Source: Kiloniella spongiae
Lineage (GTDB): Bacteria; Pseudomonadota; Alphaproteobacteria; Kiloniellales; Kiloniellaceae
NCBI RefSeq assembly: GCF_001026905.1
Contig: NZ_LAQL01000005.1
Location: forward strand, 1 to 64,000
Length of the DNA: 64,000 nucleotides
Reading direction: 5' to 3'
Part shown: positions 16,237-49,255 of the stretch, one piece after another
Layout of the letters: each line of letters opens with the position of its first letter
Numbering within the stretch: the stretch's first letter is position 1
Program-made: the position numbers and the translations under genes
The notes under the pieces: model-generated
Seen by the model: only the letters and a program-made list of their open reading frames with translations
Databases searched by the model: none
Told to the model about the DNA's origin: nothing

Positions 16237-16980
16237 TCAAGAACCAAAAACATTTTTGAGAATCTCTGTTGTTCGTGCGACCGGATTCTGACGAATCTGT
16301 TCTTCTTCCTTTGCCAGATAGTAAAACAACCCTTCCAGCGCCTTTGAAACTGTATAATCAGTTAAATCAGACTTCACATCTGGTACAAAAGGAATCGTTT
16401 TGTAGCTGGAAATCATTTCTTCATAGCTATTCACCGCACCAACTTCTGAAAGGGTCCGGTCAATAATAGGTTTAAATTTTGCCGTTAATTCAGGGCTCAT
16501 TTTCTCCCTAAAGTATCTCGTCGCCTCATCATTACGACCATCATAAATCCGTCGAGCATCCTCCAGCGTCATTTTAGAAATCGTATCAAGAAAAAGTTCC
16601 CGTGTTTCAACAGATGCTTTTTCTGCGCCGCGATTAAGCTTGAGCTCCAGATCATCAGCCATGGAAGACAGACCAACGGTACGCAGTGCGCCTTGAACTT
16701 TCTTCAAGTTATCTGGTAAAGGAATATGAATGTTGCTGTCTGCATTGAAACCATCTTGCAAGCTAACCTGATCAACAACGCGGGAAGAACCAACTCGCAA
16801 GGCTTCTTTTAAACCCGCCGAAATCTCACCAACACTTAAATTGCCCTGACTTTGCTCCCCCTGCTTCGCGTCACCGCCCTGGAGTATCTTAAGACCATCA
16901 CTGAATAAATCGGCCTCTACGGGCAGTGTAAAAAGCGTAAATGATAAAGCAGCAGAAACTGTAATGGATTTTTTGAACAT
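16237..16980 (-). CDS. Exported DUF4197-family protein
   Basis: This 247-residue protein begins with a signal peptide (about residues 1-23, cleavage near VEA). The body matches the DUF4197 pattern: an LSVGEISAGLKEAL segment, a central IPLPDNLKKV and RTVGL stretch, and conserved acidic/hydrophobic helices near FREKMSPEL. A YLAKEE segment occurs near the C-terminus. The family is widespread in Proteobacteria, helical and periplasmic, and its function is not established. The gene stands alone. Its upstream region holds one copy of the repeated structured element (17034-17135). Confidence 0.85.
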   Translation of the reverse strand: MFKKSITVSAALSFTLFTLPVEADLFSDGLKILQGGDAKQGEQSQGNLSVGEISAGLKEALRVGSSRVVDQVSLQDGFNADSNIHIPLPDNLKKVQGALRTVGLSSMADDLELKLNRGAEKASVETRELFLDTISKMTLEDARRIYDGRNDEATRYFREKMSPELTAKFKPIIDRTLSEVGAVNSYEEMISSYKTIPFVPDVKSDLTDYTVSKALEGLFYYLAKEEEQIRQNPVARTTEILKNVFGS

Positions 16981-17033
16981 GAAGATATTCCGAACCTGAT
17001 ATAAAAATTACCTAACCGAAGTTAGCTCTTATA

Positions 17034-17135
17034 ATTGTTTAGCTTAATTCTTACTCTAGACGTGAAGAGAGAAATGTAATCGCTTCCCTACACGAACGAT
17101 GAAACAACGGCGAAGAAGAGCTGAGCTAAACATCT
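17034..17135. ncRNA. Candidate structured RNA or repeat element, copy A
   Basis: This approximately 100-nt segment resembles 48692-48800 over its whole length, with roughly 80 percent identity in the first 70 nt by eye. Its ends are inverted: GTTTAGCT (17037-17044) pairs with AGCTAAAC (17124-17131). Inside, CTCT (17054-17057) pairs with AGAG across 8 nt, and the block GAGAGAAATGTA is shared exactly with copy B. No reading frame is shared. It lies 57 nt upstream of the DUF4197 gene (minus strand). The coding strand of the RNA, if any, is not determined. Confidence 0.55.
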
Positions 17136-17221
17136 ATACATATAACAGATTCGGAAAGCGCGTATATATACGTAAAACACTGAACGCAAAGAAATCACAC
17201 TCCACCATAAGAGATTCAAAA

Positions 17222-17258
17222 GAAAACAAATGGCCCTGAACATTCAGTTCAAGGCCAA
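17222..17258 (-). terminator. Terminator after the 83-residue conserved protein gene
   Basis: On the minus strand GGCCTTGAAC pairs with GTTCAGGGCC (one mismatch or wobble), then a T-rich tail follows. It lies about 40 nt after the stop codon at 17297. Confidence 0.8.
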
Positions 17259-17296: not shown

Positions 17297-17548
17297 TTAA
17301 ATTGCCTGGCAGTAACGCTCGGAAAAGCTTGAAAGGCCAAGTGTCCTGAAGTCTTCGAACCCGGTACTGGTATCACCATCAACAGATATGGAGAAATGCA
17401 CATGCGGGATGCCAAAGGTATCCTTCTTCACATTAATAACCTTAGCTGTTTCTACGACCCGATGCGGATTCACATAACGATATTTGTGACCAACTTTGAC
17501 TTCATCAGAGTCGCGCTTGAATTTATATAGACTATCAACGAATGACAT
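17297..17548 (-). CDS. Small conserved hypothetical protein
   Basis: This 83-residue soluble protein is rich in beta-type sequence. It has a GHKYRYVNPHRVVETAKV segment, and a FGIPHVHFSISV segment follows. I recall similar small proteins in Alphaproteobacteria but know no function. The start has an AGGG element 7 nt upstream, and a good terminator follows, which supports a real gene. It is monocistronic. No catalytic or metal motif is visible; the fold may be a small SH3-like barrel, which is a guess. Confidence 0.72.
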   Translation of the reverse strand: MSFVDSLYKFKRDSDEVKVGHKYRYVNPHRVVETAKVINVKKDTFGIPHVHFSISVDGDTSTGFEDFRTLGLSSFSERYCQAI

Positions 17549-46990: not shown

Positions 46991-48274
46991 ATGAGCATAG
47001 GTACAGTAAAGAACGTTGATATGGGAACCATCAAAGCTGGTGACAATTCACTACAGGCATTTGATGTTCATCGCATTCGCGAAGATTTCCCTATTCTTCA
47101 ACGTGAGATCTATGGCCGCCCCCTCGTCTATCTGGACAGTGCTGCATCTGCCCAAAAACCTCGTCAGGTCTTGGATCGGATGCAAGAGGCCTATGAAACT
47201 TACTATTCCAATGTTCATCGTGGCGTCCACAGCCTGAGCCAAACCTGTACCGAAGCCTTTGAATCCGGACGCAATGCTGCTGCACGTTTTATTAATGCAG
47301 AAAGCCCGGATCAGTGCATCTTGACCAAAGGCGCAACTGAAGCAATCAATCTGGTTGCGCAAAGCTATGGCCGGAATTTCCTGAAGGCGGGTGATGAAAT
47401 CATCATTTCCCATATGGAACATCATTCCAACATTGTTCCCTGGCAAATTCTCAGAGATCAAATTGGTATCGAAATCAAAGTCGTGCCAATTGATGGTGAT
47501 GCAAACTTCCTGTTTGAAGAATATGAAAGCCTTTTCAGTTCAAAAACAAAGCTGGTCGCTATTACGCATATTTCCAATGCTGTTGGTACTGTAACGCCGA
47601 TTAAAGATATCATCCGCGCTGCCCATGCACATGGTGCAAAGGTTCTGGTTGATGGCTGTCAGGCAGCCCCGCATGCGCACATTGATGTACAGGATCTCAA
47701 TCCGGATTTTTATTGCTTCTCTGGTCACAAAGTTTATGGACCAAGCGGCGTCGGTATCCTTTATGGTAAAGCGGATCTTCTCAATTCAATGCCCCCTTAT
47801 CAAGGCGGTGGCGAAATGATTGACCTCGTTACCTTTGAGAAAACGACCTACAAAGAAATACCGCATCGCTTCGAAGCTGGAACGCCCGCAATTGTCGAGG
47901 CCATAGGTCTTGGTGCGGCCATTGAATATATAGAAGCACTTGGCAAAGATAATATCGCAGCCCACGAAAACGGCATTCTTGCTTATGCAACAGAACGCCT
48001 GAGCAGAATACCCGGATTGAATATTATCGGTCGGGCAAAAGAAAAAGCCAGTATTCTATCCTTCACCATGGAAGAAGCCCACGCCCATGATATCGGTACG
48101 ATCCTTGATCGCAGGGGTGTTGCGGTCAGGGCTGGTCATCACTGTGCCCAGCCGTTGATGCAACGCTTTGATCTACCTGCGACAGCACGTGCTTCCTTTG
48201 GTATTTATAACACTCGTGAAGAAGTTGATGCGCTCGCTGACGCTCTTGAAAAGGTACGGGAACTCTTTAGCTAA
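46991..48274 (+). CDS. sufS: Cysteine desulfurase SufS
   Basis: SufS removes sulfur from cysteine with PLP and passes it to the scaffold. At 427 residues it is a group II desulfurase. PLP lysine K247 lies in CFSGHKVYGP. The persulfide cysteine C385 lies in RAGHHCAQPL. The N-terminal segment (about 1-22) is longer than in E. coli SufS. No sufE or sufU partner gene is in the operon, so the sulfur acceptor lies elsewhere or is replaced. The stop overlaps the next gene by 1 nt. Confidence 0.96.
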   Translation: MSIGTVKNVDMGTIKAGDNSLQAFDVHRIREDFPILQREIYGRPLVYLDSAASAQKPRQVLDRMQEAYETYYSNVHRGVHSLSQTCTEAFESGRNAAARFINAESPDQCILTKGATEAINLVAQSYGRNFLKAGDEIIISHMEHHSNIVPWQILRDQIGIEIKVVPIDGDANFLFEEYESLFSSKTKLVAITHISNAVGTVTPIKDIIRAAHAHGAKVLVDGCQAAPHAHIDVQDLNPDFYCFSGHKVYGPSGVGILYGKADLLNSMPPYQGGGEMIDLVTFEKTTYKEIPHRFEAGTPAIVEAIGLGAAIEYIEALGKDNIAAHENGILAYATERLSRIPGLNIIGRAKEKASILSFTMEEAHAHDIGTILDRRGVAVRAGHHCAQPLMQRFDLPATARASFGIYNTREEVDALADALEKVRELFS

Positions 48275-48675
48275 TGTTTGATGATGGAAAAAACTTAAGC
48301 GATTTTCTTCCAAAGGCAGAAGAAGGCTTTAAAGCTACAGCCGGAAAACCACTGGACGAGGGAACAGTCTTTGCAAGCAAAGATGACATAATCGATGCCT
48401 TTCAAAGTGTCCACGATCCTGAGATCCCGGTAAACATTTATGACTTAGGTCTCATCTACGGTCATGAAATGGATGAAAAGGGCAATGTTAATGTCAGCAT
48501 GACACTAACAGCCCCGAATTGCCCGGTCGCGGGGGAACTCCCCATGCAGGTCGCAGAGGCTGTTGCCGCTGCGGAAGGTGTCGGGGAAGTGACCGTTATC
48601 CTGACCTGGTCGCCCCCCTGGAACCAGAATATGATGAGTGACGATGCACAACTGGCACTTGGCCTGTTTATGTAA
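48274..48675 (+). CDS. sufT: SUF-associated MIP18/DUF59 protein (SufT-like)
   Basis: This 133-residue protein belongs to the MIP18-like family and helps maturation of Fe-S proteins. The motifs VHDPEIPVNIYDLGLIY and APNCPVAGELPMQVAEAV are typical, with the conserved cysteine in NCPV. The C-terminal WSPPWNQ motif is also typical for SUF-linked versions. It starts within the sufS stop codon and is therefore co-translated with it. Confidence 0.93.
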   Translation: MFDDGKNLSDFLPKAEEGFKATAGKPLDEGTVFASKDDIIDAFQSVHDPEIPVNIYDLGLIYGHEMDEKGNVNVSMTLTAPNCPVAGELPMQVAEAVAAAEGVGEVTVILTWSPPWNQNMMSDDAQLALGLFM

Positions 48676-48691
48676 ATTTTATTTGTATATT

Positions 48692-48800
48692 GTTGTTTAA
48701 CTTAATTTTAGCTCTAGGCGTATAAGAGAGAAATGTAGTTATTTCTACATGAACGATAATACAACCCATGAGATACTGGGAAGAAAGGGTTAAGCTAAAC
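48692..48800. ncRNA. Candidate structured RNA or repeat element, copy B
   Basis: This segment lies between sufT and sufA and resembles 17034-17135 (see that entry). Ends are inverted: GTTTAACTTAA (48695-48705) and TTAAGCTAAAC (48790-48800) pair with one mismatch. A perfect internal hairpin ATGTAG/CTACAT (loop 6) is at 48733-48750. The matching region in copy A keeps a weaker TGTA/TACA pairing with different loop bases. The block GAGAGAAATGTA is identical. A GGGG/CCCC hairpin near 48820-48833 follows. Confidence 0.55.
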
Positions 48801-48883
48801 GACTATAACCTTTTTATTTGGGGTATTTCCCCCATATAGTGATATAGTACAATTAGAAACTGGAAATTAAGAGACATAATCCG

Positions 48884-49255
48884 ATGATGCCAAAACTCAT
48901 CACCCTTACAGATGCTGCCGCAGATCGCGTCAAAATGCTTATGGACCAAAGCCAGGACGAAGCTGTTCTTGGCCTGCGTGTTGGCATCAGCACCAAAGGT
49001 TGTTCCGGTCTCAGCTATGTCGTGGAATACGCCAAAGAACAAAAGAAGTTTGAAGATGTTGTCGAAGACAAAGGCGTCAAAATCTTTATTGAACCAACTG
49101 CCGTCATGTATTTGATCGGCAGCGAGATGGACTTTGTTCAGGATAAATTCCAGAGCTCTTTTGTTTTTAACAATCCAAATGAAGCAGGGCGTTGTGGTTG
49201 TGGTGAAAGTTTTCACGTTGCACCTGAAAGCAACAAAGCTGAATTAATCACCTAG
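48884..49255 (+). CDS. sufA: A-type Fe-S carrier protein SufA
   Basis: A-type carriers accept clusters from the scaffold and deliver them to target proteins. At 123 residues it shows the three conserved cysteines: C40 in TKGCSGLSY and the pair in the C-terminal CGCGESF motif. An intervening element of about 200 bp separates it from sufT, but orientation is the same. It could have its own promoter after the structured element (a TATAGT-rich stretch near 48835-48848). Confidence 0.94.
   Translation: MMPKLITLTDAAADRVKMLMDQSQDEAVLGLRVGISTKGCSGLSYVVEYAKEQKKFEDVVEDKGVKIFIEPTAVMYLIGSEMDFVQDKFQSSFVFNNPNEAGRCGCGESFHVAPESNKAELIT

Follow-up and report, generated by a model that had tools for sequence, protein, structure and literature searches.

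The window, a stretch of 64,000 nucleotides of the Kiloniella spongiae genome, contains two copies of a short element with 31.7 kb between them; as described in the initial annotation, both are intergenic, with open reading frames on either side. Copy A occupies positions 17030–17138 on the plus strand (109 nt with the terminal TA on both sides, limits set by family comparison). Its 5′ arm, the inverted end (17030–17055), is followed by a core with an inner hairpin, ATGTA...CTACAC (17056–17113), and by the 3′ arm (17114–17138) that pairs with the 5′ arm, all on the plus strand; the inner limits of both arms and the limits of the core are approximate. Minus-strand genes flank copy A on both sides, one encoding a DUF4197 protein (16237–16980, PF13852) and the other being an open reading frame of 83 aa (17297–17548), part of which is well conserved in relatives. 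Beside copy A, positions 17139–17190 are near-identical in four species and more alike than the element; this stretch is possibly a regulatory site. A minus-strand terminator-like hairpin is located at 17231–17257, downstream of the 83-aa frame (1 found, 0.7 expected).

Copy B (48688–48807, plus strand, 120 nt with the terminal TA on both sides) sits between two iron-sulfur assembly genes, all in one direction: a gene for a SufT-like iron-sulfur assembly protein upstream (48274–48675, plus strand, PF01883) and one for a SufA-like protein of iron-sulfur biosynthesis downstream (48884–49255, plus strand, PF01521). It carries an additional CCCATGAGATACTGGG block that is present in some copies only. 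In a BLAST search over the K. spongiae genome A and B match at 79% over 74 nt, and with an E value of 1.7e-9 this likeness is not due to chance. The inverted ends and conserved internal blocks described earlier are real in A and in B. Also the statement that the copies share no reading frame could be verified, since none of the six frames stays open throughout either copy. Folded alone, copy A (17034–17135) gives z values of −2.41 on the plus and −1.33 on the minus strand, copy B (48690–48803) values of −2.42 and −3.57, respectively.

The description as a two-copy element has to be revised. Further copies in the K. spongiae genome were first obtained by BLAST with A and B, and a covariance model (R1) was built from 11 copies. 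The covariance-model search of this genome and its relatives that had been suggested with the initial annotation revealed 13 matches in K. spongiae and 84 in the genus (R1, E ≤ 0.01). Seven of the nine Kiloniella genomes including the present one are carriers; G001 and G002 gave no match with R1 at this threshold. A second model (R2) found 14 matches in K. spongiae at E ≤ 0.001. From the R1 set of 84, five matches weaker than E 0.001 and two opposite-strand re-readings were dropped, and a later set of 80 matches resulted in 77 distinct copies in the genus after removal of three opposite-strand re-readings.

The exact core pattern occurs in seven stretches of a public genome set, all of them Kiloniella records (the K. 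spongiae genome being perhaps outside this set). At the level of the order, 8 of 61 genomes matched at E ≤ 0.001 with stricter filters; seven of these are the carriers in the genus and the eighth belongs to another genus of the same family, with a weak match of 40 bits (E 6.5e-4). In another genus of the family, a sequence weakly related to the element (L135, G047:C2:499092-499205) is richer in G+C, and its arms are different but complementary. Plasmids searched with one element copy and viral contigs searched with the exact core pattern gave no match.

The consensus of the 77 copies is TATAGTTGTTTAACTTAATTTTTGCTCAAGGCGTGAAGAGAGAAGTGTAGATAACCTACACGAACGATGAAACAACGACGAGAAAGAGTTAAGTTAAACGACTATA. 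Copies are about 100–125 bp long with ends TATAG...CTATA, the ends being TATAGTTGTTTAA-like. The arms, which begin with TATAG, pair over 21–25 bp around a more constant core, and within the core an inner hairpin of 6 bp is formed by pairing of GTGTAG with CTACAC. Some copies including B hold an extra block like CCCATGAGATAYTGGG. Of 76 copies, with one short copy excluded and rare insertion columns left out of the rows, only 12 are open in the best of six frames (approximate count). Identity between different sites is 0.57–0.62 for the arms, 0.72–0.75 for the core, 0.80–0.82 for the inner stem and 0.39 for its loop. Arms that vary more than the core from site to site are the opposite of what sequence-specific recognition of the ends would predict. 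At site A in G008 (L088:1506-1600) both arms are kept, with much of the inner hairpin and of the right core lost.

The history of insertion can be read most directly at site B, which is filled in K. spongiae only and empty in all eight relatives. If the element and one TA are removed from the filled site, the junction that is left measures 20 nt, as do those of G004 and G008. This was read by hand; automatic alignments put the gap elsewhere. From these two empty sites, the TA at 48688–48689 and the TA at 48806–48807 are the probable left and right copies of the target duplication. A filled and an empty site with TA target duplication are thus observed at site B, readable against two relatives; in the other six the junction stretch is missing or too diverged. 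The duplication is clear at this one site, the remaining empty junctions being ragged. Site A, aligned in seven genomes with G001 and G002 left out, is filled in four of them (G000, G008, G004 and G003); the element is absent in G006, and G005 and G007 are too diverged to judge.

Many insertions are old and common to several species. Grouping by flanks yielded 16 sites that are shared among two to four species, with a seventeenth pair joined later, and about 45 insertion groups in total for the 77 copies (or 41 once four further pairs, doubtful or near, are merged). The highest identity between copies of different sites is 0.896, and with no pair above this value a recent burst is not indicated. 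The initial annotation had named many near-identical copies with target site duplications as the mark of a mobile element: the duplication is found at site B, near-identity is not, as identities stay at or below 0.896.

Only three copies touch a called gene by more than a few bases, 74 of 77 overlapping none by more than 10 bases. The exceptions are a copy inside a called frame (L019) and two partly overlapping ones (L080:6500 and L085). With the directions of the neighbouring genes written around the element (E), 26 copies lie in context +E+, 18 in -E-, 17 in +E- and 13 in -E+, and three could not be classified. Gene calls for these contexts were made by a crude script, which missed the 83-aa frame beside A. 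In a syntenic 20-kb region (L064, G000:C4:25000-44999, with L065, L066 and L067) 3, 5, 4 and 5 copies, respectively, are clustered among ordinary metabolic and regulatory genes in four genomes. One of these loci (L065:9195-9485) holds two oppositely oriented elements 71 bp apart with part of a third beside them, and in relatives either the one or the other is retained. In the pairs L055/L073, L027/L077 and L093/L094 the flanks are alike, too, but the elements point in opposite directions. Some of the opposite-orientation pairs may be due to independent insertions and losses, which is likely for at least one, given the two elements and a fragment at the L065 locus and perhaps a fragment at L073. 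For the rest, inversion in place may account for the difference.

Taken together, a length of about 100–125 bp, the ends TATAG...CTATA, the mostly intergenic location and the occurrence in all orientations lead us to read the element as a MITE. The copies are non-coding, stay below 200 bp, are bounded by terminal inverted repeats and are dispersed in multiple copies at different sites. Most likely the element is a new MITE family in Kiloniella and as such an ordinary kind of thing, apart from the coordinated change of its arms. No description of the family was found in the open-access literature listed for Kiloniella, most subscription journals lying outside this scope. Of the earlier proposal, a small RNA family or a MITE-like element, the second half is upheld by dispersed copies, TA ends, the filled and empty site with TA duplication and mixed orientation. 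The first half gained nothing from searches of the window and of four relatives' loci, in which no Rfam family matched the element at gathering score, nor from promoter- and terminator-like patterns near A and B, which do not exceed shuffled expectation.

A transposase supplied in trans presumably moved the element, although no helper of the IS630 type was found in the K. spongiae genome. The IS630-type transposase domain is absent there, as judged with two Pfam models for the IS630 type: the IS630 DDE domain is present in two of nine genomes and HTH_Tnp_IS630 in one of nine, in neither case in K. spongiae, with pieces located in G006 and G001. Around the larger IS630 locus of G006 two pairs of inverted repeats were observed, neither of them like the element ends. 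A search for a helper by the end pattern gave totals below those of the reversed-pattern control in all nine genomes. Among the matches listed (G001–G005), one candidate pair of ends 1.4 kb apart was inspected; the only frame of 100 aa or more that it encloses has 113 aa. As far as the available text of a review of such repeats goes, a partner insertion sequence is known only for RUP (PMC2229807).

Compensated changes between the arms, already pointed out in the initial annotation, are real both in a structure-fitted alignment and in counts within shared sites. In the alignment fitted to the structure (60 copies) two-sided changes occur in 22 of 27 pairs and amount to 126 cells compared to a shuffled mean of 39.8, a number reached by 0 of 500 shuffles. 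The copy L065:9195 was removed from its first group before shared-site and mispair counts; prior to this regrouping, 95 two-sided changes stood against 45.7 expected. On an alignment made from sequence only, the 16 shared sites show 21 double changes from one Watson–Crick pair to another, compared to 3–8 in ten shifted registers, and 16 compared to 2–6 if two doubtful groups are left out. For the outer stem, 18 were observed against a mean of 3.8 with permuted partners (0 of 2000). Since the double changes within shared sites exceed those in shifted registers and with permuted partners, the arms change together after insertion, which was unexpected. Of the 21 compensated positions 18 are isolated and not part of tracts; co-changes in the neighbouring columns 22–24 of a single copy (L066, site g6) look like one tract.

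Mispairs were compared on the plus strand. Family-wide, G-U exceeds A-C in 31 insertion groups and the reverse holds in 8, with 7 ties; this count omits two consensus U-G columns, and the covariance model may favor G-U during copy search. Joining the shared pair L065:9376/L067:7942, which had been counted twice, changes the ratio to 30:8 with 7 ties, and joining all pairs that are possibly one site changes it to 29:7 with 5 ties. The 31 best copies alone gave 54:32 mispairs and 13:4 groups. Resolved by context, the G-U to A-C ratio is 57:31 for +E+, 39:21 for +E-, 28:13 for -E+ and 37:36 for -E-. Within shared sites it is 65:41 over all columns (p 0.025) and 55:40 without the two consensus U-G columns (p 0.15). 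Counted by group, the inner hairpin gives 29:18 (p 0.14). A family-wide excess of G-U is what upkeep of a plus-strand RNA predicts; inheritance from few source copies could give the same result. With regard to conservation, the element exceeds its 40-nt flanks in identity at just 7 of the 16 shared sites (p 0.90), and the core is more conserved than the arms at 9 of them (p 0.30).

How the arms stay paired can be explained in several ways. When the element is read into the transcript of a neighbour, it would form a long imperfect hairpin, and this hairpin of the plus-strand RNA may influence how the host transcript is processed or how stable it is, an effect that has been reported for Correia/NEMIS and ERIC repeats. 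That the arms are held paired through such a function at the RNA level is the reading we prefer, tentatively and as an unproven one, at somewhat less than an even chance. Several observations weigh against it: conservation of the element does not exceed that of its flanks, the core is not clearly above the arms in shared sites, the excess of G-U is weak without the consensus columns and nil in -E- copies, whose neighbours are read on the other strand, and copy A itself is flanked by minus-strand genes on both sides. In template-switching at imperfect palindromes, one arm is rewritten after the model of the other (quasi-palindrome correction), which would couple the arms without any function. 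Self-repair of this kind fits the data about as well, and it stands only a little short of an even chance that the copies are functionless MITE remnants whose arms are kept complementary by template-switching during replication. The missing conservation over the flanks agrees with it, as do the adjacent triple co-change in L066, the shared-site ratio of G-U to A-C that is not clearly different without the consensus U-G columns, and the -E- copies without excess. A strand-blind process, however, should yield G-U and A-C equally, whereas the family-wide group counts favor G-U, and most compensated positions are isolated; the former could also result from inheritance from few source copies.

An explanation as a dispersed family of small-RNA genes, each copy being expressed alone as a structured RNA, would account for the covariation, the more constant core and the inner hairpin, and also for the excess of G-U in -E+ copies, both neighbours of which are read away from the element. 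Nevertheless it appears improbable, as the insertion at site B is young and shows a TA duplication and the gene contexts are mixed. In addition, Rfam at gathering score returned three tRNAs only for the 64-kb window and nothing for the loci of four relatives, site A searched at a permissive threshold yielded two hits that fall well short of this score, and promoter- or terminator-like patterns near A and B do not go beyond shuffled expectation. A further reading would be that the fold, and not the end sequence, keeps this mobile element family and might even be what moves it, with arms that differ between sites and go on changing in concert after insertion around a steadier core and inner hairpin. 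This we regard as rather unlikely; if true, dozens of old insertions would act as structured segments in Kiloniella transcripts. Apart from adding a MITE family to Kiloniella, the insertions common to two to four species offer a test of whether MITE hairpins are under RNA selection or whether self-repair of palindromes mimics such upkeep.

The Kiloniella element agrees with the traits given for MITEs in the available text of PMC2229807: it is of the same size, has inverted ends with TA termini and a target duplication, and its transcripts are predicted to form a stem-loop. The CIR repeats of Caulobacter and Brucella are alphaproteobacterial intergenic repeats of about 110 bp with a conserved RNA fold (PMC2229807, in the part available). 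They carry GANTC, which is found in only 4 of 77 Kiloniella copies, and are built from two arms joined by a linker, in contrast to the single end-to-end stem observed here; identity with CIR is excluded by the missing GANTC. Integron attC sites, which had been considered for their ends, were set aside because of the clustered copies in both orientations. By its description in the same text, RUP of Streptococcus pneumoniae is similar in length (107 bp), TA target, inverted ends and intergenic location (PMC2229807). An IS630 helper is proposed for RUP there, whereas none was found in the K. spongiae genome. The ERIC/IRU/RU-1 repeats of enterobacteria are described with 127 bp, TA ends, a stem-loop transcript and a proposed effect on mRNA stability (PMC2229807, in the part available), all of them similar to observed or proposed features of the Kiloniella element.

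The strongest resemblance in build is to the Correia/NEMIS elements (CREE), described in the available parts of PMC2649163 and PMC2229807 as a class of 104–108 bp with TATAG inverted ends, without a protein, dispersed and with target duplication, the transcript hairpin of which binds RNase III. Length class, TATAG inverted ends, lack of a protein, target duplication and dispersal are shared. True membership in this family by common descent with the Neisseria elements would in addition be suggested by TTAA in the arms, CAAGGCG after the arm, the TA target and an end-to-end alignment with a 106-nt CREE that was reached by 0 of 1000 shuffles. It is nevertheless highly improbable. In 16 stretches with an exact CREE end, taken from a viral collection, nothing matched model R2 at E ≤ 10, a local alignment was reached by 14 of 1000 shuffles, and once the ends are removed the core aligns no better than expected by chance (1460 of 2000 shuffles do as well). 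Since the reversed consensus, too, is equalled by just 12 of 1000 shuffles and the core is at chance, it is the symmetric ends that carry the likeness. The arm sequences differ beyond the first bases and the cores are not significantly similar, the CREE core sequence being absent from the Kiloniella element. In place of the CREE end pattern TATAG[CT]GGATTAA..., as given in the available part of PMC2649163, the Kiloniella consensus reads TATAGTTGTTTAACTTAA, and where four fixed end patterns are reported for CREE in that text, the Kiloniella arms vary from site to site. Judged by these comparisons, the Kiloniella element is built like Correia/NEMIS, a likeness that does not by itself amount to homology.
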